Shown piece by piece: positions 2,162 to 23,406 of a DNA stretch of 49,029 nucleotides. A program made the position numbers and the translations under genes. The notes under the pieces were generated by a model. The model was given only the letters and a program-made list of their open reading frames with translations, was not told where the DNA came from and did no database searches. The first letter of the stretch is position 1, and every line of letters begins with the position of its first letter. Source of the DNA: a virus; the IMG/VR virus record IMGVR_UViG_3300042565_002113, positions 1-49,029 of that record. One strand, given 5' to 3'.

Positions 2162-2545
2162 TTATCTAACGGATAATCCTGATATTAAACTTTCGTAGTT
2201 AGTTCCGTTAAAGAAGCTGGCTATGTATCCTCTTTCTTCTTCATTAAAATAAATACGTAACCTATAATGATCACCCGATTTCTGTATTAAACTATCAAAC
2301 AACATAAATTTCTCATTCACGTCTGAATGTTTAATTAATACCTCACCATCACTCATCTCTATCATTATTATTCTCTCACCATATTTGTTTGTGAACTCTT
2401 CTTTTTTAACAATATCCTCTTCATTGATATCCTCATCGTCAATTAAAACTATATCATTATTCATACTTTCGTTGATACTGTCTTTAACCACTCTCTTAAT
2501 CATACGAACCAAATCGGATTCAGTTAATCTTATAATCTTTTTCAT
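2162..2545 (-). CDS. Leader-bearing putative internal head protein (127 aa)
   Basis: The N-terminus MKKIIRLTESDLVRMIKRVV is one of the leader types of this array. It contains LTE at residues 7-9 and a second site INE at about 24-26, both fitting the (I/L)-x-E cleavage rule of T4-type prohead proteases. The remaining ~100 residues are acidic then mixed beta, with no known domain. It has its own promoter-like ATAAATAT box (plus-strand 2563-2570) and terminators on both sides, so it is a single-gene transcript. The internal-head assignment is inference from the leader. Confidence 0.7.
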   Translation of the reverse strand: MKKIIRLTESDLVRMIKRVVKDSINESMNNDIVLIDDEDINEEDIVKKEEFTNKYGERIIMIEMSDGEVLIKHSDVNEKFMLFDSLIQKSGDHYRLRIYFNEEERGYIASFFNGTNYESLISGLSVR

Positions 2546-2562
2546 AATATATTTTGTTTATT

Positions 2563-2570
2563 ATAAATAT
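2563..2570 (-). promoter_or_regulatory. Late-type box ATATTTAT
   Basis: Minus-strand ATATTTAT about 17 nt upstream of the ATG of gene 2162-2545. It is a member of the recurring RTATTTAT family described in the findings. Confidence 0.4.
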
Positions 2571-2578
2571 ATCACAAA

Positions 2579-2606
2579 CAAAAAATCCCCCACTTTTGTG
2601 AAGGAT
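2579..2606 (-). terminator. Rho-independent terminator, minus strand
   Basis: Stem ATCCCCCAC (2585-2593) with GTGAAGGAT (2598-2606), T run beyond on the minus strand. It follows gene 2609-2953 directly and repeats the 2115-2141 terminator almost exactly. Confidence 0.75.
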
Positions 2607-2608
2607 CT

Positions 2609-2953
2609 TTATTCTCTCTTTAATGTTTTGTACATTTGTTTTATTCTTTTTTGATAATGTTTTGATAATGCATCCACCGAATTCTCATACCATTCCACGT
2701 TATCAGGAAAATAACGTCTCAATTCAATTATTGATATTAAATCAACAATAACCGCTCTTATGAATTCTTTTTCCGATAAGTTGCTTGATTTTGCTTTGTA
2801 TTGCTTAACAAACATATTTGATATATAATACAATGACGATTTGAAATCACCTTCTAAATTATATAATTTATCTGGTGGTAACCTACGTGTTATCATTCTA
2901 AGGTAATTCGTTTCCTCTTGTAATACTTTTCTTATGTGTTCTTGTAGGTTCAT
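2609..2953 (-). CDS. Leader-bearing protein with RRI-type module (114 aa)
   Basis: Starts MNLQEHIRKVLQEE, with a predicted cleavage after LQE (11-13). The rest begins with a basic TRRLPPDKL stretch that resembles the FFRRRIDHHKF and FFHRRIDLDEV starts of modules in 14913-16523 and 6803-7129. It is an all-alpha domain of about 90 residues that recurs in this array. No enzyme motif is visible. It is 1 nt from the next upstream gene (2955-3386), so the two are probably co-transcribed, and it ends at a terminator. Confidence 0.75.
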   Translation of the reverse strand: MNLQEHIRKVLQEETNYLRMITRRLPPDKLYNLEGDFKSSLYYISNMFVKQYKAKSSNLSEKEFIRAVIVDLISIIELRRYFPDNVEWYENSVDALSKHYQKRIKQMYKTLKRE

Positions 2954-2954
2954 A

Positions 2955-3386
2955 TTACCAAATACTTTCTCCCGTTCCTTTATGGATTAATTTTATACAG
3001 TTAGGTGATATATTCTCAAATGTTACAATATGATGTTCATAATCCCCACCTTCGAAGTGTGCGTCTCTATACCAAGTAACTTTAGCACATTCTGTGTCTA
3101 TTAACCATATGTCATCATTATAACCACTATCGAACATATCTTCTTTATTCATTGAATCTGTGGCGAAAATTGCTGGTTGACATTCCGTATACCATTCACC
3201 ATATAAATCCATTGCGTGATTCTCATAACATTCCCCTACCGATGTCAGCAAACCATTAAGTCGTATACTCTTTCTCCATTTTGGATTTGATTGATGCGCT
3301 ACAAACTTATTAGGTGTCATTTCAGTTCCACTTGGTGAGTATACCTCCTCCTTTAGTATTTTTCTTATATGTTCTTTTAGGTTCAT
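2955..3386 (-). CDS. Leader-bearing protein, possible ADP-ribosyltransferase fold (143 aa)
   Basis: Leader MNLKEHIRKILKEE with cleavage expected after LKE (11-13). The body has FVAHQSNPKWRKSIRLNGLL at 28-47 (His31, Ser33, then I-x-x-N-G-L), then AIFATDS at 72-78 and IWLIDT at 93-98. This order (H-x-S, I---GL, I/Y-x-A) recalls small ADP-ribosyltransferase or KptA/RES-like folds. The comparison is suggestive because T4 Alt is an injected ADP-ribosyltransferase with a leader of the same kind. The catalytic Glu is not clear, so the enzyme call is tentative. A late-type box precedes it at 3391-3398. Confidence 0.5.
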   Translation of the reverse strand: MNLKEHIRKILKEEVYSPSGTEMTPNKFVAHQSNPKWRKSIRLNGLLTSVGECYENHAMDLYGEWYTECQPAIFATDSMNKEDMFDSGYNDDIWLIDTECAKVTWYRDAHFEGGDYEHHIVTFENISPNCIKLIHKGTGESIW

Positions 3387-3390
3387 ATAA

Positions 3391-3398
3391 ATAAATAC
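3391..3398 (-). promoter_or_regulatory. Late-type box GTATTTAT-like
   Basis: Plus-strand ATAAATAC, read on minus as GTATTTAT, 4 nt before the ATG of gene 2955-3386. Confidence 0.45.
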
Positions 3399-3453
3399 TT
3401 TAATAAATTAAACAAATATTATTTTTTGTTTGAATGAATTATTTTAAAATCAT

Positions 3454-3461
3454 ATATTTAT
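3454..3461 (+). promoter_or_regulatory. Late-type box ATATTTAT, plus strand
   Basis: ATATTTAT 4 nt before the ATG at 3466. It has the same orientation relative to its gene as the minus-strand copies, which supports a directional element. Confidence 0.45.
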
Positions 3462-3465
3462 TTAT

Positions 3466-4185: not shown

Positions 4186-4274
4186 TAATTAGGGTCATAA
4201 ATAACATTATAATCCGATTCATTAATAAACCCCATCATTGATTATATTCTTCTTATTTGTTCTTGTAAATTCAT
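4186..4274 (-). pseudogene. Decayed leader gene with in-frame stop (ParB-like paralogue remnant)
   Basis: From the ATG at 4274 (overlapping the TAA of the upstream gene) the frame reads MNLQEQIRRI then TAA at 4242-4244. In the same frame it continues SMMGFINESDYNVIYDPN up to the convergent plus-strand gene. This aligns with the start of gene 7771-8208 (MNLQEQISRIQSMMGMITES...GIIYEPE), with CAA changed to TAA. I read it as a truncated paralogue; alternatively the 10-residue leader peptide is itself made (compare 9674-9721). Confidence 0.6.
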
Positions 4275-4975
4275 TACATTTGGTTTTGGGTAATATCATA
4301 TCCCGAATTGGATAATATTATATAAATTTTATCTCTTTCCTCTTTGGATAATTTGTTTAACGTAAGTTTTATCGAACCATCGTCACCATCCATAAAATAG
4401 TTATGAATATTATTCCGATTTAGAATTTTTCCAATTCTGTTCATCTCTTGACTATAGGTTAATTTATGTCCATGATTTGGCGACAACAATACGTCATAGT
4501 TTTGGGTATTTTTTTGAACCTTATCAACAACTTCTTGAGGTATTTCTGTATCATTACTTATAGGTTCTTCTTGTATTATCTGAAAACCATTTTTTGTTAA
4601 AAAATCACGAATTTTATCTTCATATAAGAAATAGTTATTTAATCTAATCTCATAACCAAATCCCATTCCCAAACCCATAAAAATATCATTAACTTCTGAT
4701 TTGATCCCTTCATTTCTAAAAAGACGCTCAATAATTTTTTTGACCATTTGAGGATTATAGTTTTTATTATATACAACAACAATTTTGTAATCGTAGTTTT
4801 CAGTTTCTTGAGGTATATCTGTTTTGTTTAAACTATATAAGAATGTTTTCTCTCTATTGTTTAATGAGCCCATTCCTTTGGCACTAATCTTATCTAAGAT
4901 TTGATTTAATCTATCTTCATCTTCATTCAGATTCATAACCTGTTTAATTCTTAATATTTGTTCTTGTAGATTCAT
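4274..4975 (-). CDS. Leader-bearing hypothetical protein (233 aa)
   Basis: Leader of the second type, MNLQEQILRIKQVMNLNED, with cleavage expected after LNE (16-18). The body looks like two related halves: YDYKIVVVYNKNYNPQMVKK (~60-80) and YDVLLSPNHGHKLTYSQEMN (~160-180) each open a beta-alpha unit and are followed by a strand ending in NGF or SGY (FLTKNGFQI, ILSNSGYDI). This suggests a duplicated ~80-residue domain. No known family is recognised. A late-type box lies at plus-strand 4980-4987, and its stop overlaps the start of the decayed gene downstream. Confidence 0.7.
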   Translation of the reverse strand: MNLQEQILRIKQVMNLNEDEDRLNQILDKISAKGMGSLNNREKTFLYSLNKTDIPQETENYDYKIVVVYNKNYNPQMVKKIIERLFRNEGIKSEVNDIFMGLGMGFGYEIRLNNYFLYEDKIRDFLTKNGFQIIQEEPISNDTEIPQEVVDKVQKNTQNYDVLLSPNHGHKLTYSQEMNRIGKILNRNNIHNYFMDGDDGSIKLTLNKLSKEERDKIYIILSNSGYDITQNQM

Positions 4976-4979
4976 ATTG

Positions 4980-4987: not shown

Positions 4988-4989
4988 CC

Positions 4990-5892
4990 TTATTCACAAT
5001 TATCAAGTGACTCATAAAAAAAATCCCTAACTTTACGGTCGTAGTTTAATTCTAATAGAAGACCGTATGTTATATCAAAAATTCTCCCCCATTCATCACT
5101 ATTATCAAGACCATAGTTTCTAACATTAAAAATTTTATTTGTTATATATCTTGTAATTTCACCTATTGTTTCGTTTACATAAAGATTTACCTCATCTGTT
5201 ACCCAATAATCACATACATCCTTTGGATTTAAATTATCTTCAAGATATTCATCCGCAATATATAATAATCTTCTACCTGTTAACCTATCATCGTTCTCAT
5301 TTATATTTTCTTTAATAAGATTGTTATTAACCAAATAATTAAACAATGCCGTTGCCAATTTCTTACCGAACTTTATATCTGATGGATAATGTGCTTTGGC
5401 CATTTGTCTTGAATACATAATGTCTTCCGCAATCTTAATGAAATCTTTCTTATATTTGGGATACATTTTACCTAACACCATGCTAACCAAATTGGATTGT
5501 GTTGAGTGTCCTGATGGATAAGAATAACCTGTGGTTGATTTTAATGCCGGATCCTTAAATGTTTTATCTAATTTAAAAGGTCTTGGTCTTTTATAGTGAT
5601 CTTTTAATAATAAAATAATATCTTTGGAGTTATTAATCAATTTCTTTAAGAGTTTCTTATCATACTTAATTTCTTTCTCATCCAAAAAATCTGTGAAGTT
5701 TTCCAAGATATCATCTTTATCCTTAAAGAATTTATTATTTAATTTAATTGATCGTAAGTATTTTATTTCTTTTTTGGTTTCCTCACTTTCGTTATCTGGC
5801 GGATCCTGATTCTTAAATTTTGATACATCAAACCTTTTAAACATATTTGTTTCAGTTTCTTCCCTTAAAATTAATCTTATTAAATCTTTCAT
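4990..5892 (-). CDS. Leader-bearing PAP2-superfamily acid phosphatase
   Basis: Type 2 phosphatidic acid phosphatase / vanadium haloperoxidase fold, which removes phosphate through a phospho-histidine. From the ATG at 5892 all three signatures are present: K97-x6-R104-P105, PSGH at 126-129, and S161-R162-x5-H168-x3-D172. There are no membrane helices, so it is a soluble form. The leader MKDLIRLILREE is cleavable after LRE (9-11). A second possible site, INE at 197-199, separates the enzyme from a ~100-residue C-terminal helical domain starting RLTGRRLLYIADEYL. The frame extends 12 codons upstream, but the ATG at 5892 gives the standard leader and avoids overlap with the neighbour. Packaging in the head is inference. 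Confidence 0.85.
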   Translation of the reverse strand: MKDLIRLILREETETNMFKRFDVSKFKNQDPPDNESEETKKEIKYLRSIKLNNKFFKDKDDILENFTDFLDEKEIKYDKKLLKKLINNSKDIILLLKDHYKRPRPFKLDKTFKDPALKSTTGYSYPSGHSTQSNLVSMVLGKMYPKYKKDFIKIAEDIMYSRQMAKAHYPSDIKFGKKLATALFNYLVNNNLIKENINENDDRLTGRRLLYIADEYLEDNLNPKDVCDYWVTDEVNLYVNETIGEITRYITNKIFNVRNYGLDNSDEWGRIFDITYGLLLELNYDRKVRDFFYESLDNCE

Positions 5893-5893: not shown

Positions 5894-6313
5894 TTATGAT
5901 AAGTATCTATACCCTTCAACTCTATCAACCTTTTTTTTATATAACCTTGTAAACAGTTGCCCTATCATCTTGCTATCTAAATGTAAAAGATCTTTGTGTG
6001 GAAACATTTTATGTATTTTTTCAGCAAACCCCCATGTATATTCTAACCTTTTAAATTCAGGATAATATTTCATTACAGTACTGTTACCATCACTATTAAA
6101 ACTTATCACACTAATTGTCTTATGACCTTCAGAGTTTGTATTTTTGTGTGATTGTAATTTAAACATTGGGATGAGGTATCTTACAATAAGATCTATTCTT
6201 TTCTCTTCAGTTGTGAGTTCTTTCTTTGGAAATAGTTTTCGTAATCTGTCAATGAGTCCAACTTCTTCTCTTAATACTTTCTTTATGTGTTCTTGTAGTA
6301 TATTAGTTTTCAT
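5894..6313 (-). CDS. Leader-bearing hypothetical protein (139 aa)
   Basis: Leader MKTNILQEHIKKVLREE, with the usual LQEHIKKVLRE preceded by four extra residues; cleavage expected after LRE (14-16). The body is basic (LRKLFPKKELTTEEKRIDL) with alpha and beta segments and no recognised motif. It overlaps the 3' end of 6303-6806 by 11 nt, so the two are probably translated in series. The leader DNA is almost identical to that of the next gene, which suggests duplication. Confidence 0.7.
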   Translation of the reverse strand: MKTNILQEHIKKVLREEVGLIDRLRKLFPKKELTTEEKRIDLIVRYLIPMFKLQSHKNTNSEGHKTISVISFNSDGNSTVMKYYPEFKRLEYTWGFAEKIHKMFPHKDLLHLDSKMIGQLFTRLYKKKVDRVEGYRYLS

Positions 6314-6806
6314 AATGAAAAAATCTCCCTTCTATATCAACTTCCCGTACCTCAAGACCTGAGTTATACTCAAACCATCTTTTAAATACAGGAATCCATT
6401 TATCACCAAATAACGATGTTAATTCATTTACAACCCATCTATTTATGGATAATAAATATAAATAATCATACCCATCCCATTCACCAAAATAAGAATATGC
6501 GTCTTTATCATAATCAACAAAAAAACTTTGAATTCCGTAACTTTTAAGATTTCTCTTAAACTGTTGTTTTTGTGGGATATTTTCAGGTCCCCAATCATGT
6601 TCAGGTGATAGATTTTCCGTTAGATATTGGTATATAAATTCATCAAGCTCTTCACCATCAAGATTTAATATATTTATTAATCTTTTACCACCACCAACGG
6701 CCTTTGCGGCATTTTTAAATCCATAAACATCAATCATATTTCTCAGGTTATTCTTAATTGATGATTCTTCCCTTAATACTTTCTTTATGTGTTCTTGTAG
6801 GTTCAT
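6303..6806 (-). CDS. Leader-bearing protein with LRNMID-GG module (167 aa)
   Basis: Leader MNLQEHIKKVLREE, cleavage expected after LRE (11-13). Residues 19-55 (NLRNMIDVYGFKNAAKAVGG...ILNL) are a ~40-residue module shared with 10185-10871, 10873-12111 and the C-terminal part of 17672-19060. It is apparently a helix-turn-helix-sized domain ending in VGG. The C-terminal part is rich in aromatic residues and looks like a mixed alpha/beta domain. The function is unknown; the shared module may be a DNA- or scaffold-binding unit. Confidence 0.75.
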   Translation of the reverse strand: MNLQEHIKKVLREESSIKNNLRNMIDVYGFKNAAKAVGGGKRLINILNLDGEELDEFIYQYLTENLSPEHDWGPENIPQKQQFKRNLKSYGIQSFFVDYDKDAYSYFGEWDGYDYLYLLSINRWVVNELTSLFGDKWIPVFKRWFEYNSGLEVREVDIEGRFFHYEN

Positions 6807-7129
6807 AGTTCACCACGGATATTTTTATATAAATCTATAATTATGTCCTCAAACATATCTGATACTTCTGTAACAAAATCTATTTCTTCTTGTTCAGGTA
6901 AATCTTCCCACCCAATTTCATATTCATTCCACATAATTGATTCCACCGCTCTTAATGTTAACTCATATTTAAATTGTTTAAAACTTTCTGTTTCATAAAA
7001 TACTTGTTTTGCATTAACGGGAAGTAACGATTTAACCTCATCTAAATCAATTCTTCTATGAAAGAATTTTGATTCATTAATGGTACCCATCATTGATTGG
7101 ATCCTTGATATTTGTTCTTGTAGGTTCAT
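6803..7129 (-). CDS. Leader-bearing protein with RRI-type module (108 aa)
   Basis: Leader MNLQEQISRIQSMMGTINES, cleavage expected after INE (17-19). The remainder (FFHRRIDLDEVKSLL...FKQFKYELTLRAVES...EIGWEDLPEQEEIDFV) is clearly related to residues 10-85 of 14913-16523 (FFRRRIDHHKFEKMM...EEFKWKLVQVTLENY...EIDLDTVPEDEVTDFI). This is the most complete stand-alone copy of that acidic helical module. Overlaps 6303-6806 by 4 nt. A late-type box is at plus-strand 7136-7143, inside the end of the upstream gene. Confidence 0.75.
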   Translation of the reverse strand: MNLQEQISRIQSMMGTINESKFFHRRIDLDEVKSLLPVNAKQVFYETESFKQFKYELTLRAVESIMWNEYEIGWEDLPEQEEIDFVTEVSDMFEDIIIDLYKNIRGEL

Positions 7130-7130: not shown

Positions 7131-7769
7131 TTATGATAAATATTTAGTAAGTTGTCTTATCGTGTCATTATTATTTCTATGTAATATTCCAACACCACCT
7201 TTTCTAACCCATTTATCAATATTCTCAGGTGAATCATCTATTAATATTTTATTTGGCCCTGAATAGTTTTGTTTATCAGTACCTTTGATAACAAAATAAA
7301 CTTTATCATCTGTTAAACCTAATATATTTGTTACCTGATTTAATTTGTTTTGTCTTTTTTGTTCTTGATTTGTCGATCCAATTGATGTTAGAATATTAGG
7401 ATTAAACCCTTTAATATAATTCCACAATGTATCTCCAATAAAATTTACGTTTTGAGAATTGGTTGACATTTTATTTGGGTATGATCTTTTATATTCTTCA
7501 CCATACTTTACCCAAGCATTACTTGTATTTTTACCCCACTTTCCATCAGCACCGTATTTTCCAAGTATTTGATTATCTTTTTTGGTATTAATAACCCAAC
7601 TTTGGAATCCCATGACATCTGTCGGTTTTTCTGTGGTTCCCGCTTGTACTTCATCATTACTTGATGAAAGAAACAATACACCACCCATATCAACATAAAT
7701 TTGATAGGTTGTATTTTCATTCAACCTCATCATTGTTTTCATTCTTGATATTTGTTCTTGTAGATTCAT
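7131..7769 (-). CDS. Leader-bearing HAD-superfamily (5'-nucleotidase-like) protein
   Basis: After the leader MNLQEQISRMKTMMRLNEN (cleavage after LNE, 16-18) the protein has HAD landmarks: nucleophile strand YVDMGGVLF at 25-33 (Asp27), a motif II-like TSIGS at 128-132, and the acidic motif LIDDSPENIDKW at 176-187, as in 5'(3')-deoxyribonucleotidases. The second motif-I aspartate, normally DxD, is Gly29, so phosphatase activity may be lost or changed. The cap region contains LGKYGADGKWGKNTSNAW (69-86), which resembles the repeat of peptidoglycan-binding domains. The next upstream gene starts 1 nt away. Confidence 0.7.
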   Translation of the reverse strand: MNLQEQISRMKTMMRLNENTTYQIYVDMGGVLFLSSSNDEVQAGTTEKPTDVMGFQSWVINTKKDNQILGKYGADGKWGKNTSNAWVKYGEEYKRSYPNKMSTNSQNVNFIGDTLWNYIKGFNPNILTSIGSTNQEQKRQNKLNQVTNILGLTDDKVYFVIKGTDKQNYSGPNKILIDDSPENIDKWVRKGGVGILHRNNNDTIRQLTKYLS

Positions 7770-7770
7770 A

Positions 7771-8208
7771 TTAACAATCTCCTATACCATAAAAAATGCA
7801 GTCAATAAGTTCTGCATCATTTTTATCCCATATGTAAACCATAGAATCATTATCATTCATTCTATCCCTACATAATCTATGGTGTCCATCTATTACAATT
7901 AGTTTTCCCTTGTGTTTGTATAAATGAATATCTTTTTTATCATATGTTTCATCGGACATATCATTTACGTAGTCCATATTAATATCCTTTTGAACACTAT
8001 AAACTTTCTTTGTTGGTGACAATCTTTGTTTTTTTGGGTTAAGTGTGTGTATTAATTCATTACTATCATTTACCACCATATCAAAAATGTTTGTGGATTC
8101 TAAATCTTTTTTTAATTCAGGTTCGTATATAATTCCACAATCTTTATGACTTTCGGTTATCATCCCCATCATTGATTGTATTCTTGATATTTGTTCTTGT
8201 AGGTTCAT
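7771..8208 (-). CDS. Leader-bearing ParB/sulfiredoxin-like domain protein
   Basis: Leader MNLQEQISRIQSMMGMITES with cleavage after ITE (17-19). The body contains LIVIDGHHRLCRDRM at 103-117; the DGHHR core (107-111) is the nucleotide-binding or nuclease motif of ParB-like/sulfiredoxin-fold proteins. The preceding text (VYSVQKDINMDYVNDM) fits the usual strand before it. Phage ParB-like proteins include DNA nucleases and DNA-binding regulators; which applies here is not visible. A decayed paralogue lies at 4186-4274. The promoter-like box is at plus-strand 8213-8220. Confidence 0.7.
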   Translation of the reverse strand: MNLQEQISRIQSMMGMITESHKDCGIIYEPELKKDLESTNIFDMVVNDSNELIHTLNPKKQRLSPTKKVYSVQKDINMDYVNDMSDETYDKKDIHLYKHKGKLIVIDGHHRLCRDRMNDNDSMVYIWDKNDAELIDCIFYGIGDC

Positions 8209-8212
8209 AGTA

Positions 8213-8220
8213 ATAAATAC
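8213..8220 (-). promoter_or_regulatory. Late-type box GTATTTAT
   Basis: Minus-strand GTATTTAT 4 nt before the ATG at 8208; it separates the leader genes from the upstream pair 8224-9656. Confidence 0.45.
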
Positions 8221-8223: not shown

Positions 8224-8937
8224 TTATACGTAAATAATTTTCCACTTACCATCAAAATCTTCTACAAGACAAGTTGAGTTCTCACAAAAGTCCCCACTAT
8301 TCATATAGTCCACATCTAACTTTGGTTGATGGATGTGCCCACATACCGCAACATCACATTTTTTCTCCTTTGTTAAACCTTTCGCATTTTCCTCAAAGTC
8401 AGATACAAAATTGATTGCACCTTTTACAGATTGTTTTATATCATTCGCTAATGAATGGTACGGTAAATTAAACTTTCTCCTGATATAATTATAAAAAGTA
8501 TTTAATCTAATAACTAAATCATATGACCAACCACCAAGAACAGCTAACCATCTTACTTTCATAATAACAAAGTCCAAGACATCACCGTGAAAACAGTAAT
8601 ACTTTCTTCCATCTGCTCCGATGTGTGTGTATTTCCTAACAATCTCAATATTGTTAATTAAAAATGGAACAAAAGGTTTTAAAAAATCATCGTGATTTCC
8701 CCTAATATAAACTACCTTTGTACCATCTTCCGATCTCTTCATGAAACGTCTGAATATCTTTGAACATTCTTTCTTCCATTTCCCACCACTCTTTAATGCC
8801 CATCCATCAATAATGTCTCCATTTAATATTAATGTTTCGGATTCGTTTTCTTCTAAGAATTTAAGTATTTTTTGTGTTTGTGATTGTCTGGCACCTAAGT
8901 GTAAATCACTCATTATTATTGTTCTCCACTTTTTCAT
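8224..8937 (-). CDS. Metallophosphoesterase, UDP-diacylglucosamine hydrolase-like
   Basis: Calcineurin-like phosphoesterase with the full metal-binding set: MSDLHLG at 9-15, NGDIIDGW (~38-45), RGNHDD (~76-81), FHGDVLDF (~110-118) and CGHIHQP (~195-201). The order and spacing match the LpxH-type UDP-2,3-diacylglucosamine diphosphatase group of Bacteroidota, although phage versions may act on other phosphodiesters. The frame also opens at a TTG at 8943, but the ATG at 8937 overlaps the TGA of the upstream glycosyltransferase (ATGA) and is preferred. It has no cleavage leader, unlike its neighbours. Confidence 0.85.
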   Translation of the reverse strand: MKKWRTIIMSDLHLGARQSQTQKILKFLEENESETLILNGDIIDGWALKSGGKWKKECSKIFRRFMKRSEDGTKVVYIRGNHDDFLKPFVPFLINNIEIVRKYTHIGADGRKYYCFHGDVLDFVIMKVRWLAVLGGWSYDLVIRLNTFYNYIRRKFNLPYHSLANDIKQSVKGAINFVSDFEENAKGLTKEKKCDVAVCGHIHQPKLDVDYMNSGDFCENSTCLVEDFDGKWKIIYV

Positions 8938-9661: not shown

Positions 9662-9669
9662 ATAAATAT
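9662..9669 (-). promoter_or_regulatory. Late-type box ATATTTAT
   Basis: Minus-strand ATATTTAT 5 nt before the ATG at 9656. Confidence 0.45.
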
Positions 9670-9673
9670 TACT

Positions 9674-9721
9674 TTAGATCTTCATTTCTCTAATTCTTTG
9701 TATGTTTTCTTGTAGGTTCAT
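9674..9721 (-). CDS. Leader-only mini-gene (15 aa)
   Basis: ATG at 9721 followed by MNLQENIQRIREMKI and TAA at 9674-9676. It matches the leader of neighbouring genes, including an (I/L)-x-E site (IRE, 10-12), but nothing follows it. It sits exactly 1 nt after the stop of gene 9723-10178, the standard junction in this array. It is either a remnant of a deleted gene or a real peptide. Not detectable by normal gene finders. Confidence 0.45.
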   Translation of the reverse strand: MNLQENIQRIREMKI

Positions 9722-9722: not shown

Positions 9723-10178
9723 TTATTTCTTTATTTTTACACAATTTGGATATCTTTTACCAAACATAGTTTTCATTCCCTTCTGAGTGTACCCTTTCCA
9801 ACATCTTTCTGTTAATTCGGTATTCTCATATAATTCATCTTCAGTATTATTCCTATAATATTTAACGATCATACCCCCATATTCATCTTGAATATAAGTA
9901 AGGAAATCATCGTACATTTCATTATATCCTCTATCTTCAGGCATTATATGATTTTCATCAAAAAAGTAATCTGTCACCTTAAATATTACCTCATCAGCAA
10001 ATGAATCTTCATTTGAATAATCTTCTAAATACAAATCATTCATAACAACACTTATGACTTTTCTAACCTCAAGTTCATCCAATCCTTCCTTAAATCTTCT
10101 TCTTAAAGCAATGTTATCACGGATCTCTTTTATGACCCTAATAAGTTCTGATTCCGTTAATCTTATTTTCTTTTTCAT
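9723..10178 (-). CDS. Leader-bearing protein with releasable Cys/basic C-terminal peptide (151 aa)
   Basis: Leader MKKKIRLTESELIRVIKEIR, cleavage expected after LTE (7-9). The middle (LRRRFKEGLDELEVRKVISV...) resembles the RRI-type helical module. At the C-terminus a second LTE (122-124) is followed by RCWKGYTQKGMKTMFGKR (125-142) and a last Cys at 146. This compact, very basic two-Cys tail would be freed as a ~27-residue peptide if the site is cut. I have the impression that this tail motif recurs in other phage proteins; its function is unknown. Confidence 0.7.
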   Translation of the reverse strand: MKKKIRLTESELIRVIKEIRDNIALRRRFKEGLDELEVRKVISVVMNDLYLEDYSNEDSFADEVIFKVTDYFFDENHIMPEDRGYNEMYDDFLTYIQDEYGGMIVKYYRNNTEDELYENTELTERCWKGYTQKGMKTMFGKRYPNCVKIKK

Positions 10179-10184: not shown

Positions 10185-10871
10185 TTATCTATTGTATGGT
10201 CTAAACCTCATCGGGTTAGCATTAATTACTGATTTGGGAAATCTTAATCCCGCACCTTGTTGTCTTGCATTTTTTAATGTTCTTGAGTATTCATCAATCT
10301 CATTCTTTTTACGTCTACCCGCACAGTGAGCCTTCTGACTGAAACCTTTTGGATTACTACAGTTAATGGATTTTTTATATTTCTCCGACCATTTTTCCGT
10401 TAGTTCTTCCTCTTCATCTGTTTCCATATCCTCATCAACAACTTTAGCGTCTAAAAATATTTTAGTACCTTTTGCTGCAAAAACAGGATGCCAAGATGGT
10501 TGTACTCTAAAAGGAAATAATTCTTTATTAAGATAATCACATATCACATTTACATACCAACTCGTTACATTTGCCGCAGTGTCATCAGTTTTAAAATTAA
10601 CGGTAAGAAGCTTCCCACTCACAGATGGTCTAACATCAACAGATTGAACGTCAATCTCATCAACTTTAGTATGTTCAATAAAATTTTTAACTAACATTAA
10701 TTGAGTATCTATGTCATCTAAATCAAGATTTAATATCTTAGCAACATTTTTCATTCCACCAACCGCAGTTGATGCTACGTCAATACCTTTGGTATCAATC
10801 ATATTTCGGAGTTTTGATTGTAAGGAAGTTTCTTCCTTTAATATTCTTTTTATGTTTTCTTTTAAGTTCAT
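10185..10871 (-). CDS. Leader-bearing protein with LRNMID-GG module and basic C-terminal peptide (228 aa)
   Basis: Leader MNLKENIKRILKEE, cleavage after LKE (11-13). Residues 20-50 (KLRNMIDTKGIDVASTAVGG) are the shared LRNMID-GG module. A mixed alpha/beta domain follows. The acidic run EDMETDEEEE leads to LTE (157-159), then a basic tail with CSNPKGFSQKAHCAGRRKK (171-189), a two-Cys motif known to me from other phage proteins. The frame extends 10 codons upstream, but the ATG at 10871 restores the standard leader and a 1-nt junction. Both C-terminal and N-terminal cleavage are inferred. Confidence 0.75.
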   Translation of the reverse strand: MNLKENIKRILKEETSLQSKLRNMIDTKGIDVASTAVGGMKNVAKILNLDLDDIDTQLMLVKNFIEHTKVDEIDVQSVDVRPSVSGKLLTVNFKTDDTAANVTSWYVNVICDYLNKELFPFRVQPSWHPVFAAKGTKIFLDAKVVDEDMETDEEEELTEKWSEKYKKSINCSNPKGFSQKAHCAGRRKKNEIDEYSRTLKNARQQGAGLRFPKSVINANPMRFRPYNR

Positions 10872-10872: not shown

Positions 10873-12111
10873 TTAATGTCGGTAAATTGATATATGTCCA
10901 CCTCTTAATCTTTGATTACTATTGAATTTGATTTCTTTAGGTAAATGTTTATCTAAATATAAATATGAGGCCATCTCAACGAGGTCATCTCTCCATCCTT
11001 CGTCTTTTATTAATTTTATTAATTTATCTTTGAAATTATGATCAATATGAACCTCCCCATCTCTTTTTGATATCATATATGCTATTTCATCAGCATCTTC
11101 ATCAACATGAAGAATATAATCTTTTAATATCTCCGTTAATATAAGATGATTAGCGATCAAATAATTATATACCAACCTCACATTCATCTGATCTCTTTTT
11201 GGTAGTTCATTAAATTCCTCACCCGTTCTTCTTGAAGTTATTTCCTCCATTAAAATATCATTTTCATTATTGTATTCAACATACTTGTCCATAATATAAT
11301 CGTGAAATAATTGATGTAATCCATTATGAATACCATCATAATCAAAATCAAGATTACCACTATCAGATAGAATTGAATGGAAGTCATCCATTGTAGCATC
11401 TAAAACAATACGTTCAAATGTATCACCTTCCATTTCTTCTCTATCTCTAAATCCATTCACAAATCTAATTGATCTTTTTATGGCGTTAACTATTTCGTCA
11501 TGATTAATTCTTCTTTTTAAGTAATTTAATGCGGAGTTACTTTTACTTTCTTGAATATTATTTGATTCACCATAAAGTTTATGATGTACACGTTTAATGT
11601 CATCTTCATCAAAATCAACAAAAAAATCATCGAGAAAATCAATATATTCTCCATTCATTTGTGAAATTTGGTAATAATCTGTATTAAATAATTTTGAGTT
11701 TTTTTTACTTAACTTTCCAATGGTATTGTCATTTACTATTGTACTAATTATAGATTTTAAAATTTCAGTGTCATTATCGTTCAATTTACTTTTATCAAAA
11801 ATAATATTCAGTTCAGGCCAACTATTGGTTTTCCATACGTTATTTTGATCCCCAATTATTTCATAATCAAAAGCAAATGTAAATGGGTTTTTGTCTCCAT
11901 AATGACTATAGTATTCAAGATTTACCGTTCCAGTTAAATCATCAAGTATTGAAATAATCTCAGGGTCATTGTTAAATATTTTTTTAAAAGGTCTGATCCC
12001 TCCCAATAATTTCATAACAAAAATAACTCCTTTCTCATCAATTAAATTTCTGAGACGTTCTTTAAAATCTTTGGTTTCTTCTCTTAATATATGTCTAATC
12101 AATTCTTTCAT
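10873..12111 (-). CDS. Leader-bearing two-module protein (412 aa)
   Basis: Leader MKELIRHILREE, cleavage after LRE (8-10 or the following residue). Module one starts RLRNLIDEKGVIFVMKLLGG (19-38), the shared LRNMID-GG type. A site IQE at 186-188 precedes module two, YLKRRINHDEIVNAIKRSI (197-215), of the RRI type, which continues with long acidic helices. So it looks like two array proteins joined with a protease site kept at the joint. Late-type box at plus-strand 12116-12123, directly before the ATG. No enzyme motif seen. Confidence 0.75.
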   Translation of the reverse strand: MKELIRHILREETKDFKERLRNLIDEKGVIFVMKLLGGIRPFKKIFNNDPEIISILDDLTGTVNLEYYSHYGDKNPFTFAFDYEIIGDQNNVWKTNSWPELNIIFDKSKLNDNDTEILKSIISTIVNDNTIGKLSKKNSKLFNTDYYQISQMNGEYIDFLDDFFVDFDEDDIKRVHHKLYGESNNIQESKSNSALNYLKRRINHDEIVNAIKRSIRFVNGFRDREEMEGDTFERIVLDATMDDFHSILSDSGNLDFDYDGIHNGLHQLFHDYIMDKYVEYNNENDILMEEITSRRTGEEFNELPKRDQMNVRLVYNYLIANHLILTEILKDYILHVDEDADEIAYMISKRDGEVHIDHNFKDKLIKLIKDEGWRDDLVEMASYLYLDKHLPKEIKFNSNQRLRGGHISIYRH

Positions 12112-13281: not shown

Positions 13282-13647
13282 TTATGGATTATAGTTTTTA
13301 TTAGGGATCAGAAAGAATTTTTTATTGTGGTCATCATTATTTAATAATCTTTCTAAATTTTCCTCACAAGTTTTCTCATCAGTAAAAAAACTTGTTACAT
13401 AAATATTATTTGTGTTAAACACTTTTTTAATTTCCGATTGAATTTTTTCTTCAAAAGTATTAGCCATTACTCTATTATATCGGAACATTACAATTATTAT
13501 ATTTTCAGATAATACAATAGATGTAAAGCAAACAGAATCCGGTAAAGATCTCATCGCAATATATTTTTTTAAAGGATTTAAATACCTTTCTATATTTGTA
13601 TTTTTCTCAACCTCTTCCCTTAATATGTTTCTTATTAGATCTTTCAT
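13282..13647 (-). CDS. Leader-bearing hypothetical protein (121 aa)
   Basis: Leader MKDLIRNILREEVEKN, cleavage expected after LRE (9-11). The body is a small alpha/beta domain (CFTSIVLSENIIIVMFRYN, then IYVTSFFTDEKTCEENLERL) of unknown family. Its TAA is in frame with, and 3 nt before, the TTG start of the downstream surface protein. So the surface protein is translated by re-initiation or from its own message. A late-type box is at plus-strand 13653-13660. Confidence 0.7.
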   Translation of the reverse strand: MKDLIRNILREEVEKNTNIERYLNPLKKYIAMRSLPDSVCFTSIVLSENIIIVMFRYNRVMANTFEEKIQSEIKKVFNTNNIYVTSFFTDEKTCEENLERLLNNDDHNKKFFLIPNKNYNP

Positions 13648-14034: not shown

Positions 14035-14351
14035 TATCAGAGAACTTAAAGAAATCATTTCTATCTTTCCTTAAAATGGTTAGTGATGGTCGCATTATTT
14101 CCATTGAATCTATGATCCTTGAATATCCTGAACGAAATATGAGGTCTTTTAAATACGCACTAAGAATAGACGATAAGATAATTTTCAATGAATGTAATTC
14201 TATGGTAACAATAAAAGTAAAGAGTTTATACCCTATTCATACAGATGAACTTGTGGACATTAGTCATAAGTTTCGTTCCACATTCAAACCTCAATTACAC
14301 GATTGTGGTATTAAAATTGAGTGTGATATGGTATCTGGTTATATTTCTTAG
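14031..14351 (+). CDS. Hypothetical protein (106 aa)
   Basis: ATG at 14031 overlaps the TGA of the zinc-finger-like gene, so it is the second gene of a two-gene early-type operon. It is a mixed alpha/beta protein with four Cys scattered without pattern; no family recognised. Its TAG overlaps the TAA of the convergent leader gene 14348-14911, with no terminator between them. Confidence 0.65.
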   Translation: MISENLKKSFLSFLKMVSDGRIISIESMILEYPERNMRSFKYALRIDDKIIFNECNSMVTIKVKSLYPIHTDELVDISHKFRSTFKPQLHDCGIKIECDMVSGYIS

Positions 14352-14911
14352 TTTACTTTATATTCTCTAATATCAATATAGTTTAACATTATCCCAAATT
14401 TTCTAGCTATTCCAACAACAAAGTCACTAATACCTTCACCTATTTCATACTGTAGATCAAAATAAGTTCCCATATCATCAATTTCATTTTGACCAGTAAT
14501 AACACTATATCTTTCTCCCGAATCTTGATCATACCAAGTTCCTTGAATAATAAAAAAAGAACCTTTTAATTCTCTTTTAAGATTAATATCCACATTATAC
14601 AGTTTAAACTTAAAATCAAAGTTTACTCTTTCCTGAATGTCTTTACTTTCAGTAGAACTAAAAACTTTACTTTCTAAATACTCAAGAAATTCTTTAGTTT
14701 GATTTTCTTTACCTCCCATGTAATCAACATAATATTTCCATATACGATGTCTATTTTCTTGTGGTTCGTAAAATCCTAATTTTTTAAGAAGTTTTTCATC
14801 ATAGAACGCAACACCTTGTTTTTCCTTTTGTTGGTCCCATAATTTGAAGAAGAAGTTTTTTAACCTGTCTTCCGTTTCTTCCTTTAATATTTTTCTAATT
14901 AAACTTTTCAT
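14348..14911 (-). CDS. Leader-bearing protein with FFFKLWD module (187 aa)
   Basis: Leader MKSLIRKILKEETED, cleavage after LKE (9-11). The mature part (LKNFFFKLWDQQKEKQG...LLKKLGFY...YYVDYMGGKE...) is a close paralogue of the last ~175 residues of 14913-16523 (LKSFFFKLWDTKMGQGQ...LQKLGLL...YYIEYMGGQE). Here the module stands alone behind its own leader; in the neighbour it is fused behind an INE site. This is direct evidence that the site marks a module boundary. It is 1 nt from the upstream gene. Function unknown. Confidence 0.78.
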   Translation of the reverse strand: MKSLIRKILKEETEDRLKNFFFKLWDQQKEKQGVAFYDEKLLKKLGFYEPQENRHRIWKYYVDYMGGKENQTKEFLEYLESKVFSSTESKDIQERVNFDFKFKLYNVDINLKRELKGSFFIIQGTWYDQDSGERYSVITGQNEIDDMGTYFDLQYEIGEGISDFVVGIARKFGIMLNYIDIREYKVN

Positions 14912-14912: not shown

Positions 14913-16523
14913 CTATCCCCACTCTAAATATATTTGATTAACATAAATACCAAAAGAACTAATGATTTCATACATGAAATCTTGTATCAAATCTTTTATT
15001 TCTAGATCTAATTCCCACCAAAGATTATCATCAATTGAGTCGTGATTCATTAAATCATATTCTTCACCTGAAAATACAGTCACATTTCCTTCAACAATAT
15101 CAAACGATGCGTAAAGTTCAAGTTCTCCATTACCTAACATATTTGTTTGTTCAAATGACATATCAACCATTTTAAAAACAAAATCATAATTACCAACATT
15201 TATACGTTGATCCATAATATCCTGAGTTGTGAAAGTTTGACCAACAAAATAGTTTTTAATATTTCTTTCTAACTCTTCTTGACCACCCATGTACTCTATA
15301 TAATAATTACGGATCTCATCTTCTCTTTTTAATAATCCTAATTTTTGAAGTGTCTTTAGATCAAATGTTGGTGTTTGACCTTGTCCCATTTTGGTATCCC
15401 ATAATTTAAAAAAGAAACTTTTAAGTTTGTTTTCCTCACTTTCATTTATTTTTTCTTTTTTCCTTCTAATGATATATTTTTGGGCGTATGGGTATATGTA
15501 TTTAATGACAGACCAAAAGTCCTTAAAATCGTTCTCAAACCCACCAATTTCTTCAACATCTTTTATGTTATATTCCCAATCTTTTGTTTCGTGTCTTATA
15601 ACACTTTCCATCTTCATATTTTGATCAAACTGAATCCACCAAGTTAATTCTATATTGGTATTACTCCTTATTACAACTTCAAATATTTTTGCAAAGTTAT
15701 CCCAATATATAGATTCAATTTCCGTATTTTTTAACCAAGGATCTTCAAATTTTCTGGTAACTTTATAATAATTCTCTTCAATCTCATGTTTAAGTTTCCA
15801 CATATACATTTGTATATCGGTCATTTCTTCTCTTAGAACATTTTTAATAAGTGGTTTTAATGATCCCTCCATTTGACGGTCGTGGAGATTGTTTTGTTCC
15901 ATCACTGTAAAAACAAGGAAAATTTTATACTTCTTTTTTATGTGATCAGTAATCATTGATAATTCCTCATCAAAGTCCACCGAACTAATCGCACTATTAT
16001 AATCAATGTCTATCTCAACATCAAACATTGGAAGATTACTCAATTTTTTAATTGGTGTGATTTTTTTTACTGTAATTTTATGAATTAAATCAATAAAACC
16101 ACAATCCTCAAGTGATAAATAATCAGGGAACGTTTCATCATCAAAATCATTACACACATCAAGTAATTCTTTTACGGAAGAGTTGATCATTCTTTGTATT
16201 GTATTATCCATGGTACCTTCGTTAACGGGTCCTTTACCTTTCCTTCTTGCACTATAATAATAGCTTTTTAATAACGGATCATAAACATCAATCATATATT
16301 TAATGAAATCAGTCACCTCATCTTCAGGTACAGTATCTAAATCAATTTCGTATTTGTAGTGGAGATAGTTTTCTAAAGTCACTTGGACCAATTTCCATTT
16401 GAACTCTTCTAAACTTTTGGAATCATAATACATATACATAATACCCTCTCTCATCATTTTTTCAAATTTATGATGATCTATTCTTCTTCTAAAGAATGGT
16501 GGAATATTATGGGCATTACTCAT
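14913..16523 (-). CDS. Putative internal head polyprotein, four modules (536 aa)
   Basis: It lacks an N-terminal leader (starts MSNAHNIPPFFRRRIDHHKF), but is divided by protease-type sites. Module 1 (1-102, RRI type) ends at VNE. Module 2 (103-232) ends in a complete internal leader KPLIKNVLREE (223-233) preceded by Met218. Module 3 (233-361) ends at INE. Module 4 (362-536) is the FFFKLWD module, which is paralogous to the separate gene 14348-14911. Modules 1 and 4 each exist elsewhere as single proteins. The simplest reading is a fusion of several array genes that keeps the cutting sites. No enzymatic motif is visible. Late-type box at plus-strand 16531-16538. Confidence 0.75.
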   Translation of the reverse strand: MSNAHNIPPFFRRRIDHHKFEKMMREGIMYMYYDSKSLEEFKWKLVQVTLENYLHYKYEIDLDTVPEDEVTDFIKYMIDVYDPLLKSYYYSARRKGKGPVNEGTMDNTIQRMINSSVKELLDVCNDFDDETFPDYLSLEDCGFIDLIHKITVKKITPIKKLSNLPMFDVEIDIDYNSAISSVDFDEELSMITDHIKKKYKIFLVFTVMEQNNLHDRQMEGSLKPLIKNVLREEMTDIQMYMWKLKHEIEENYYKVTRKFEDPWLKNTEIESIYWDNFAKIFEVVIRSNTNIELTWWIQFDQNMKMESVIRHETKDWEYNIKDVEEIGGFENDFKDFWSVIKYIYPYAQKYIIRRKKEKINESEENKLKSFFFKLWDTKMGQGQTPTFDLKTLQKLGLLKREDEIRNYYIEYMGGQEELERNIKNYFVGQTFTTQDIMDQRINVGNYDFVFKMVDMSFEQTNMLGNGELELYASFDIVEGNVTVFSGEEYDLMNHDSIDDNLWWELDLEIKDLIQDFMYEIISSFGIYVNQIYLEWG

Positions 16524-17671: not shown

Positions 17672-19060
17672 TCAACTATCAGAATCACTTCTATTATCTT
17701 CAAACCAATCATACATTTCTTCTCTAGCAAAACGTAATGCTTTTTTAGAGTAGTATTTAATCACAGAAAAATAGTTTTCATTATAGAAATCAACTAACTG
17801 TTGGATTGTTTTAAATTTTTGATCTATTGTCATATAATCATTAAATTCAAATTCACTCTCATATTCTTCCGTTTCATTTCTATAAAAATCTATTGATATT
17901 GGCAGTTCTTTGTTATCATCCCAAAACATTGTGGCATAACCCGTAATTGCCTCAGATTCATTTTTATCAAAATAAATTGTAAAATTCCAAGTACCAACAA
18001 ACGAATCAAATGAAAGATGTATTTTAACTTCATCATCCTCATAATATGACGGTAGTGATTTTTTATTAAAAATATAATATTCTAATATTTCTCTACACTG
18101 ATAAGTCGAAAACGATTTTATTTTTTCTAAACTTAACTGATGATCACCAGGTAAAATAACACCTGGTTCAATGAGCTTGCCCGCAGCCTTAACTGATAAT
18201 CCAAACTTTTTTATTGTATCAACAATTCCAATACGATCAACAGATTTTGCAATCATCTCTTTTGTTTTCTCAAAACTATTTTCAGATAATATACCTATTT
18301 TATTTTTTAAGGATTTTATTTCCTTGATATAACCAGCCAACGGATTTTTTATATCCATTGGTGAATTCTCAATCATTTCCTCAATCTCAAAAAATCGTTT
18401 TAAAATCTGATTAACCGATTCATCCATAAATTCTTTTGGTACTGTTGGGCTTTCAGTTATCAAATCATTATTGTATGATAATTTTTCGGTAATCTGTTTG
18501 TTGGCTAACCTGTAAATGTGTTCAAATAATTCATCCCCACCTTCTTCAAATGATAATGGGATTTCAAATCTTAATCCAATTGCATATCTGTATCTTGGAT
18601 CTTCATTTCTTGGTCCACCCATTTTGTGTTCATAATAATAAAGTTCAAGAACAGTATTATAATTTGTGAATTTTAATATTGTTGGCGGATCTGTTTTATA
18701 ACTAACAAATTCAACATTTTTATTGTAAGTAACATTTTGGAATTGTATTCTAAGATCATCATCTCTTTCATCAGTAACAGATGTTTCAAGGTATTTCAAA
18801 AAAGGAATTCTTTTTTTAAGGTATTCTTCAGTTACTTTAATTTCACTGTCTTTAATCTCGTTGATTGTATTATAATTCTTCCAAAACTTTTTTAGTTCAG
18901 TTTTATTGTACTTATTTTCTTTTGAATCCCATCCACATGAATGACAAAGATTTGGGTGTTCATCATCTTTTTCTTTACCCCAAGAATGGTCACATTTAGG
19001 ACATTTTATTTTACCCTCAACGAGTAATTTTGCTTGAGTTTCAGTTATTATGATTTTCAT
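17672..19060 (-). CDS. Leader-bearing zinc-ribbon multi-module protein (462 aa)
   Basis: Short leader MKIIITETQAKLLVEGK (ITE at 5-7). A zinc ribbon follows with Cys20/23 (CPKC) and Cys39/42 (CHSC). Site INE (66-68) is followed by a module starting EYLKKRIPFLKYLETSV (79-95). ITE sites stand at 190-192 and 201-203; LSE (258-260) precedes a copy of the LRNMID-GG-like module (MIAKSVDRIGIVDTIKKFG...). The C-terminal ~150 residues are beta-rich with an acidic end. It looks like another internal-head polyprotein. Its start overlaps the stop of the upstream nuclease-like gene. Confidence 0.72.
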   Translation of the reverse strand: MKIIITETQAKLLVEGKIKCPKCDHSWGKEKDDEHPNLCHSCGWDSKENKYNKTELKKFWKNYNTINEIKDSEIKVTEEYLKKRIPFLKYLETSVTDERDDDLRIQFQNVTYNKNVEFVSYKTDPPTILKFTNYNTVLELYYYEHKMGGPRNEDPRYRYAIGLRFEIPLSFEEGGDELFEHIYRLANKQITEKLSYNNDLITESPTVPKEFMDESVNQILKRFFEIEEMIENSPMDIKNPLAGYIKEIKSLKNKIGILSENSFEKTKEMIAKSVDRIGIVDTIKKFGLSVKAAGKLIEPGVILPGDHQLSLEKIKSFSTYQCREILEYYIFNKKSLPSYYEDDEVKIHLSFDSFVGTWNFTIYFDKNESEAITGYATMFWDDNKELPISIDFYRNETEEYESEFEFNDYMTIDQKFKTIQQLVDFYNENYFSVIKYYSKKALRFAREEMYDWFEDNRSDSDS

Positions 19061-20598: not shown

Positions 20599-20614
20599 AT
20601 TTATTTGTTTTATA

Positions 20615-20622
20615 ATAAATAT
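20615..20622 (-). promoter_or_regulatory. Late-type box ATATTTAT
   Basis: Minus-strand ATATTTAT 16 nt before the ATG of the L,D-transpeptidase-like gene. Confidence 0.4.
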
Positions 20623-20634
20623 GTCTTTACTTTA

Positions 20635-21978: not shown

Positions 21979-21992
21979 AAGTTTTTTATTAT

Positions 21993-22000
21993 ATAAATAT
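21993..22000 (-). promoter_or_regulatory. Late-type box ATATTTAT
   Basis: Minus-strand ATATTTAT 14 nt before the ATG at 21978. Confidence 0.4.
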
Positions 22001-22001
22001 G

Positions 22002-22355
22002 TTAATCATCAAATTTAAGATCCAAAGTTCTTGTCACCCACATAGGTTTTTCTTTACTTTGGATGGCTAGTATCCATTCTCTCGCACTTGGGATGTAATC
22101 AAAGCAATCTTCTTTGACGTGCTGTTCTCCCACATATCTTGTGTAAACAACTTTATCATCACTATTGATGAATGATGGTCCAAATATTTTTTCCATCTCA
22201 AATATTCCCTCAGAATGGTGTCTAAACATCCTATGATAAGAATGTCCAACCCATGCCTTTGTTTCATCCATCCAATTATGTAAGTGAATATAATCTTCAA
22301 CTTTTCCCCCAAACTTTTTGACGGAACTTCTTGCGTGTAATAATGGGTGTGCCAT
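22002..22355 (-). CDS. Conserved protein, probable DUF6915-type (117 aa)
   Basis: MAHPLLHARSSVKKFGGKVE and the later HRMFRHHSEGIFEMEKIFG and VGEQHVKEDCFDYIPSAREW stretches are features of a small His-rich family found in bacteria and phages, which I believe is DUF6915. The many conserved His (5, 7, 38, 41, 45, 46) suggest metal binding, but no function is established that I know of. Divergent from the plus-strand leader gene at 22441. Confidence 0.65.
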   Translation of the reverse strand: MAHPLLHARSSVKKFGGKVEDYIHLHNWMDETKAWVGHSYHRMFRHHSEGIFEMEKIFGPSFINSDDKVVYTRYVGEQHVKEDCFDYIPSAREWILAIQSKEKPMWVTRTLDLKFDD

Positions 22356-22427
22356 AAAAATATTATTTACCTTAATTATAAAAATAATTACTTAATACTA
22401 AAGAAATGATATTTTTTAATTGGTTAA

Positions 22428-22435
22428 GTATTTAT
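22428..22435 (+). promoter_or_regulatory. Late-type box GTATTTAT, plus strand
   Basis: GTATTTAT 5 nt before the ATG at 22441. Together with 3454-3461 it shows that the element keeps its orientation to the gene on both strands. Confidence 0.5.
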
Positions 22436-22440
22436 ATATT

Positions 22441-23406
22441 ATGAGAGATTTTTTACGAAAATTATTAAAAGAGTATGAAGAGGAAAATGCTTTTACAAAA
22501 AAGGAATCATTATTCTTCAAGTTTTTAAATAACTATAGAAAAGCATCCGATGCAACGTCATCAAAACTTGGTAATTTCATGTTAACAAATATGAAATCCT
22601 TTGGTCTTGATCCAGATGAACATACACATTATTTTAATTTATATACTCAAAACTATAGAGAAGATGGTAGATATGACTTAACTAAAAAAAGTGAATTAAA
22701 TCAATACCATAAATTAAAATCTCAAAGAACCTCCAATCAAAGAGCGGGGGATTTAGTTGCAGAATTAAAACCATTTAAAGGATCTAACTTAAAAGCTCAA
22801 TGGGAACAAGACAATAAAGGTGATTGGGCGTATGTTGTTTATTCTTGGGATTGGTACCCTGTATTTATGTATAAATATAGAAGATGGTTTGAGGTTGATA
22901 ATAAATATTCCTCATCAACCAGTAAACAAATGTCTCAATCTAACCCAAGAAGATATAATAATTCAATTGGTAAAACAATGATTATTGTATCAAGAAATGA
23001 TATGAAAGAACTTTTAAATGGTAATGAAACTGTAGATAAAGTTATTACAAATAAAAATGATAAATTTGTTGCCACTATTGAAAGAGAACTTAATGAGTTC
23101 AAACAGGTTAGATTAGGTTGGGATCCAAGAGTTAGGGTTTCATTTAATTTTACTAGTGTTGATATTGAAGATGGTCATCCTGTTGTAGATGTTAACATAG
23201 TAAAAGTAGATAAAATGAATGGACTTAAAATCGATAAAGAAGCCGGTAATTTCTTTAGAAATGAAATGATCGGAGTAACAAGAGAATACGTTACAGATCA
23301 AATGAAAGATTATGTATCAAGATATTCATCAGCATTATTAGGTAGAGATGTTTCAAGAGACATTGTTGTTGATGTCTCATACCTTGACAACCCATATATT
23401 AATTAA
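22441..23406 (+). CDS. Leader-bearing hypothetical protein, plus strand (321 aa)
   Basis: The ATG at 22441 gives the leader MRDFLRKLLKEYEEEN, cleavage expected after LKE (9-11). An in-frame upstream start at 22420 would bury the leader and sit inside the promoter-like box. The body has no known domain: an N-terminal helical part, a Trp-rich stretch (DWAYVVYSWDWYP, ~130-142), and an alpha/beta C-terminal half. It is the only leader gene on the plus strand and ends in a bidirectional terminator. Confidence 0.75.
   Translation: MRDFLRKLLKEYEEENAFTKKESLFFKFLNNYRKASDATSSKLGNFMLTNMKSFGLDPDEHTHYFNLYTQNYREDGRYDLTKKSELNQYHKLKSQRTSNQRAGDLVAELKPFKGSNLKAQWEQDNKGDWAYVVYSWDWYPVFMYKYRRWFEVDNKYSSSTSKQMSQSNPRRYNNSIGKTMIIVSRNDMKELLNGNETVDKVITNKNDKFVATIERELNEFKQVRLGWDPRVRVSFNFTSVDIEDGHPVVDVNIVKVDKMNGLKIDKEAGNFFRNEMIGVTREYVTDQMKDYVSRYSSALLGRDVSRDIVVDVSYLDNPYIN

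Follow-up and report, generated by a model that had tools for sequence, protein, structure and literature searches.

The stretch of DNA analysed here, hereafter the window, is a virus record of 49 kb and probably a fragment (IMG/VR record IMGVR_UViG_3300042565_002113, positions 1 to 49,029, 49,029 nucleotides). Seventeen genes in about 21 kb of the window, called cargo genes below, encode proteins that begin with a leader of 9-26 residues ending in (I/L)-x-E and continue into mostly unlike bodies. Open reading frames (ORFs) were called with a simple script of our own, so the choice of starts is approximate; on gene-by-gene reading, all 16 ORFs listed in a first-pass annotation of this DNA were present with the starts given there. 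That annotation had counted at least 18 leader proteins with leaders of 9-20 residues. The (I/L)-x-E ends held, the length range had to be corrected, and 17 genuine members were counted (including 2162-2545), two further leader copies being decayed. Its description of the bodies as otherwise unrelated was mostly right and slightly overstated, as four body-body homologies exist (genes starting at 6303 and 10185, 10185 and 10873, 6803 and 14913, and 14348 and 14913).

The four proposed sequence classes of leader with a common end were supported by profiles and are designated families A to D (a slash marks the end of a leader or a joint; genes lie on the minus strand unless noted). Family A, with ten proteins in the window, has the form MNLQEHIRKVLQE/E and a short form, MKDLIRLILRE/E. 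It heads 2609-2953 (MNLQEHIRKVLQE, leader 2915-2953), 2955-3386 (MNLKEHIRKILKE, 3348-3386), 5894-6313 (MKTNILQEHIKKVLRE, 6266-6313), 6303-6806 (MNLQEHIKKVLRE, 6768-6806) and 10185-10871 (MNLKENIKRILKE, 10833-10871), and in its short form 4990-5892 (MKDLIRLILRE, 5860-5892), 10873-12111 (MKELIRHILRE, 12079-12111), 13282-13647 (MKDLIRNILRE, 13615-13647) and 14348-14911 (MKSLIRKILKE, 14879-14911); a short family A-like leader, MRDFLRKLLKE (22441-22473), begins 22441-23406 on the plus strand. All ten matched leader profile hidden Markov models (HMMs). Family B (MNLQEQISRIQSMMGTINE/S) has four members: 6803-7129 (MNLQEQISRIQSMMGTINE, 7073-7129), 4274-4975 (MNLQEQILRIKQVMNLNE, 4922-4975, a DUF6576 body following at once) and 7771-8208 (MNLQEQISRIQSMMGMITE, 8152-8208), each with a leader HMM match, and 7131-7769 (MNLQEQISRMKTMMRLNE, 7716-7769), in which a HAD-type 5'(3')-deoxyribonucleotidase body starts from YQIYVDMGG (phrog_2643, E 1.2e-13). 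A decayed family B leader at 4216-4274 (MNLQEQIRRI, an in-frame stop, SMMGFINES) has no body gene. Two proteins carry HMM-matched family C leaders, 2162-2545 (MKKIIRLTESDLVRMIKRVVKDSINE/S, 2468-2545; 47.9 bits) and 9723-10178 (MKKKIRLTE, 10152-10178), the latter with only the early LTE (residue 9), and one, 17672-19060, a family D leader, also HMM-matched (MKIIITETQAKLLVE/G, 19016-19060). The leader-only remnant at 9663-9721 (MNLQENIQRIREMKI and a stop) is a 15-codon ORF upstream of a glycosyltransferase gene.

Small profile HMMs built from the leaders of the window and one relative were searched against the N-termini of 1,483 ORFs from six genomes (the window and five relatives), with 3,603 internal segments and 4,449 shuffled N-termini as controls. 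At 12 bits or more, families A, B, C and D matched 48, 39, 49 and 52 N-termini, 1, 0, 1 and 1 internal segments, respectively, and no shuffled sequence; the resulting 188 N-terminal matches, against 3 of the 3,603 internal segments, include the seeds, and one protein can match more than one family. At a looser 6-bit threshold, the relatives had 30-37 leader matches per genome. The leader families stand far above chance expectation and are specific to the N-terminus. One match in the window (47445-47762) was judged a false positive, and shared signal-peptide N-termini (26863, 27315, 27761, 33082 and others) formed a separate group in the shared-leader test, distinct from the leaders.

Of 34 ORFs at 1-23.5 kb, 22 had an (I/L)xE among their first 26 residues, versus 13.8±2.5 for shuffled N-termini; at 23.5-49 kb it was 15 of 43 ORFs, versus 13.6. 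This enrichment is modest and gone outside the leader zone, and the count alone was rejected as proof. Because (I/L)xE is common by chance, the argument for leaders rests on the shape of their conservation. When the leaders were collected and profiled, as the first-pass annotation had suggested, information dropped at P1': families A, B and C, aligned at the E, are conserved through P1 and near zero thereafter. P1 is E in 100% because the end position of the alignment was picked by pattern, though most family members possess such an end; P3 is L in family A, I in family B and I, L or V (79, 10 and 10%) in family C. When 73 leader proteins of relatives were aligned together, the conserved part was MxLxExIxRILxE, with essentially nothing beyond.

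The propeptides of T4 internal proteins (IPs) are capsid targeting sequences (CTS) of 10-19 residues, of which ten suffice for packaging; they are removed by gp21, with positions 8 and 10 controlling processing and D at the last position stopping that of IPIII (PMC9026906). IP1-3, alike only in the leader, are injected and act as inhibitors of type IV restriction enzymes; the relatives of T4 together have at least 10 known IPs (PMC12373910). Read from the genome, the T4 leaders are MKTYQEFIAE/A (IPII/III) and MKTFKEFTSTTTPVSTITE/A (IPI). We consider it probable that the leaders of the window are likewise capsid-targeting sequences of the prohead-protease type, forming a greatly expanded T4 internal-protein system; the first-pass annotation had reached a similar reading, for which the comparative evidence (leader families, S77 protease, gp23 site) is strong. 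By analogy with T4, this suggests a large, exchangeable set of proteins packed with the DNA for delivery to the host. A short N-terminal helix (families A and B) or strand plus helix (C and D) would dock the cargo onto the scaffold core during prohead assembly, and a gp21-like S77 protease, its gene expected in another part of the genome, would then cut after (I/L)-x-E. The same enzyme would process the capsid protein at (I/L)NE, break down the scaffold and separate polyprotein cargo at its internal joints. Once released, the mature cargo would remain inside the head alongside the DNA and probably be ejected into a Bacteroidota host as early takeover or anti-defence factors, a last step that we infer from T4.

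The cargo bodies bear on where the proteins act. The model of 2955-3386 (pLDDT 65, pTM 0.60) has the leader as a separate helix followed by a low-confidence linker, and KptA/Tpt1 enzymes fill places 1-18 of its Foldseek search (best E 0.0096, probability 1.00); the body is tentatively ADP-ribosyltransferase-superfamily-like, paralleling T4 Alt. The gene 4990-5892 encodes a PAP2 phosphatase body (Pfam PF01569, E 8.6e-11), and leader cargo of relatives includes phage lysozyme, M23, GH19 and DUF2237 domains. PDB sequence searches with three cargo proteins gave no match, and an anti-CBASS Acb1 label for one relative's cargo (E 4.6e-4) fell below the cut-off and is not claimed. A variant that shares the first steps of the favoured reading holds that the cargo is packaged and cut and acts only in the head or its assembly, by DNA condensation or core filling, not after ejection. 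T4 IPIII does have a role in head morphogenesis (PMC9026906) and the Cys-bearing C-terminal modules described below are small and basic; nevertheless, ADP-ribosyltransferase-like, nucleotidase and PAP2 bodies fit the host cell better and T4 IP1-3 and Alt are injected, so that we regard this variant as unlikely, if the strongest of the alternatives.

Whether the leaders are cut can be approached from the junctions between leader and body. Homologous bodies bear quite different leaders, fused at (I/L)xE. A DHH-type protein reads MRKIISE/SGIRNIKEL in one phage and MKNLIRRIIKEETTKLLNE/SGIRGIKDL in a different one; another body, starting A(L/V)GVP, follows KLITE/ALGVP, KVLKE/AVGVP, NLIRE/AVGVP or RIINE/ALGVP; and DUF6576 proteins have leaders of family B, C or D. 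The nucleotidase body of 7131-7769 follows MMRLNE/NTTYQIYVDMGG here versus LADLLLEE..YQIYCDMDG in Flavobacterium phage immuto, and in a relative a DUF2237 domain (E 1.3e-36, residues 20-116) starts straight after a family A leader.

Similar ends occur inside proteins. The multi-body polyprotein 14913-16523, which has no N-terminal leader, contains bodies homologous to 6803-7129 and 14348-14911 and the candidate joints VNE/G (residue 102), a full internal leader ending PLIKNVLRE/E (MEGSLKPLIKNVLRE/E, residues 218-232, DNA 15828-15872) and KINE/S (residue 361); 17672-19060 is a probable polyprotein with candidate joints INE (residue 68), ITE (192 and 203) and LSE (260). In relative G009, a 1,018-residue protein (243199-246255; L137:3199-6255) strings several cargo bodies together with joints FLNE, VLNE/N, LVE/S, LME/S, VINE/S and NINE/S, the VLNE/N joint preceding the 2955-3386 homologue. 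Among internal joints found by homology, 8 of 14 fit (I/L)xE[SENTA], versus 10.4% of control windows (binomial p about 2e-5, our own arithmetic). Two small, basic, Cys-bearing C-terminal modules also sit at such ends: (K/R)CWKGYTQKGMK..PNCV follows LTE, ITE, IQE or LKE in 12 of 12 copies and WSxKYKKSI(D/N)C (..HC) follows xxE in 13 of 14, although module copies are homologous and so not independent. In the window, C-terminal modules occur in 9723-10178 (LTE/RCWKGYTQKGMKT..PNCV, 9723-9806) and 10185-10871 (LTE/KWSEKYKKSINC.., about 10299-10394). The WSxKYKKSI(D/N)C module is common to cyanophages (loci L390, L391, L332), where it can directly follow T4-like leaders (MKTFKQFQE/GWSNKYKKSIDC, MKSFKQFQE/SWSNKYKKSIDC), and on these sequences it is a link between T4-like leaders and those described here.

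Relatives were collected in two sets, the first by the family A/B leader pattern (68 IMG/VR stretches, 30 records tested) and the second, separately drawn, by the family C pattern (16 records tested). Peptidase_S77 was found in 10 and full gp23 in 11 of the first set, and S77 in 13, with gp23 in those same 13, of the second. The gp21-type S77 protease that the first-pass annotation had proposed to look for is therefore encoded by 23 of the 24 related records bearing a T4-type gp23, and in the remaining one gp23 sits at the contig end. T4 gp23 is cut after residue 65, losing its first 65 residues (PMC9958956), and the capsid proteins of all 24 relatives have LYENQASxL(I/L)NE/(A/S) aligned to FENQ..SFLTE/A of T4 gp23. 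This predicted cut matches the P3 and P1 residues of the leaders at the known T4 position. Close to the N-terminus of the relatives' S77 proteases themselves stands an LIE or LVE, comparable to LIE-9 of T4 gp21 (PMC9026906). In relative G002 the S77 gene lies at 73940-74659, and in Flavobacterium phage immuto it is gene 201.

These sites can be set against the possibility that the leaders target the head core or another assembly and stay uncut, the E being part of a docking helix. The amphipathic-helix character of family A and C leaders would suit this, as would the ejection proteins of the giant Salmonella phage SPN3US, not all of which are processed (PMC5694885). However, four families differing in sequence and length have only the P3/P1 end in common, body homology restarts directly past the E, internal joints retain the site without the helix and the capsid protein bears the same site, which makes this explanation improbable.

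The window does encode a protease on the minus strand, a ClpP-like serine protease at 35625-36347 (PHROGs "head maturation protease", phrog_94, E 6.8e-37) that is not of the S77 type; it was set aside as the leader protease because relatives carry S77 close to gp23. Its presence could fit leaders unrelated to the head, which would instead send their proteins elsewhere in the infected cell, for example to the membrane or a phage compartment, or mark them for turnover. Against this stand the strict association of leaders with relatives that have T4-type gp23 and S77, and the leader-bearing proteins that also lie within the head gene module adjoining gp23 in the relatives examined. In addition, neither S77 nor shared leaders were found in crAss phage cr85_1 and FL-1, the non-T4-like controls. 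We give this explanation very little credence.

The leader DNA forms direct repeats of 35-60 nucleotides at start codons, and the segment 7750-8218, consisting of gene 7771-8208 and short flanks, shares 96.8% DNA identity with relative G009, as against 65-90% for most other matches. This pattern suggests that single cargo cassettes are exchanged between phages, 7750-8218 being a candidate recent transfer, and we infer that leader repeats may drive the exchange. That the shared N-termini are functionless traces of recent gene duplication or recombination at repeated starts, as these repeats, the decayed leaders and the near-identical cassette might suggest, is scarcely credible when leaders of different families have arrived at the same end rule, 30-37 leader proteins per genome are kept across diverged phages and leaders are exchanged on homologous bodies.

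Several points weigh against cleaved capsid-targeting leaders all the same. The gp21-type S77 prohead protease is absent from the 49 kb window, scaffold proteins are without clear (I/L)xE enrichment, and some E-rich N-termini satisfy the end rule by chance. Family A retains a conserved second E at P1', and families C and D hold an early (I/L)TE plus a late site, so the cut position is ambiguous there. Our literature search found no paper on virion proteomics of Flavobacterium phage immuto or Rhodothermus phage RM378.

Compared with known systems, the window is closest to T4 IPI-IPIII and Alt in having a short, (I/L)xE-ended N-terminal leader on otherwise unlike proteins, in the S77 protease and gp23 with an equivalent site in its relatives and, tentatively, in ADP-ribosyltransferase-type cargo. 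In contrast to T4, there are four leader families rather than one, 17 cargo genes here and 30-37 per relative genome rather than three IPs and Alt, and multi-body polyproteins. The leaders are also unrelated to MKT(Y/F)xEF and share with it nothing but the end rule and a helical character; they would work like the T4 CTS, whereas descent from it is not supported because the leader sequences differ. The ejection proteins of phiKZ and SPN3US are likewise many head proteins packed with DNA and cut after xxE, which is predicted here, but their P3 is S or A (PMC5694885) rather than I/L and their propeptides mostly exceed 100 residues. Polyvalent proteins (Iyer et al. 2017, PMC5512222) resemble the polyproteins in stringing several bodies into one polypeptide; they carry effector domains, of ART, ParB or peptidase type, that are presumed to enter the host by injection, and one single-body leader protein of a relative matches the ART-PolyVal family (E 6e-6, under the cut-off). 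Those proteins are large, often with their own metallopeptidase domain (PMC5512222), whereas here the links between bodies are candidate prohead-protease sites and most bodies stand singly behind exchangeable leaders. Crassviruses are also Bacteroidota phages reported to pack cargo proteins in the head (PMC10172136), but they are not T4-like, and crAss phage cr85_1 has neither S77 nor the shared leaders.

The host is likely a member of the Bacteroidota, as the first-pass annotation had held: Flavobacterium phage immuto and Rhodothermus phage RM378 are among the nearest annotated phages by capsid protein, and cellular relatives of the metallophosphatase at 8224-8937 were found only in Bacteroidales. 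Phage immuto, whose host is Flavobacterium sp. LMO8, has leader groups of its own (MENFDLKKFLVENKLT.., MKKSQLRxIIKE.., MKKQILSEQFRRMQ..GIITE/S). T4, cyanophage S-SM2, pelagiphage HTVC008M and RM378 scored at background level or close to it when tested for shared leaders, by a test too strict to detect T4's own 10-residue CTS; on this basis the leader expansion looks lineage-specific. A cross-phylum test with the MFFSNLEQM family yielded one match, from an uncultured source.

Elsewhere on the minus strand of the window, 12268-13278 encodes a protein in which a long TPTxT (threonine-proline) repeat linker joins two domains, and 38805-39869 one with about a dozen degenerate VEDTIQNGVK-type repeats. 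A block of secreted or lipoprotein-like genes (26863-35000; signal peptides, lectin/cohesin-like, DNA/RNA endonuclease G type) includes several that resemble genes of immuto.

Beyond the leaders themselves, we give an even chance to a modular delivery system in T4-like Bacteroidota phages, in which exchangeable leader cassettes would make genes into cargo, repeated leader DNA would serve as a recombination anchor, polyprotein strings would be diced at (I/L)xE joints in the head and each virion would deliver dozens of separate effectors at once. With such joints, one targeting event would bring several proteins into the head, a loading route that would be new for tailed phages. If the favoured reading is true, dozens of candidate injected effectors, most without a known domain, can be picked out in little-cultured phages by a sequence rule that needs only the genome, and genes now labelled "hypothetical" become anti-defence and takeover candidates open to testing. 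It would also provide short tags for loading proteins into Bacteroidota phage heads and mean that the T4 internal-protein strategy has been expanded several-fold in another lineage.

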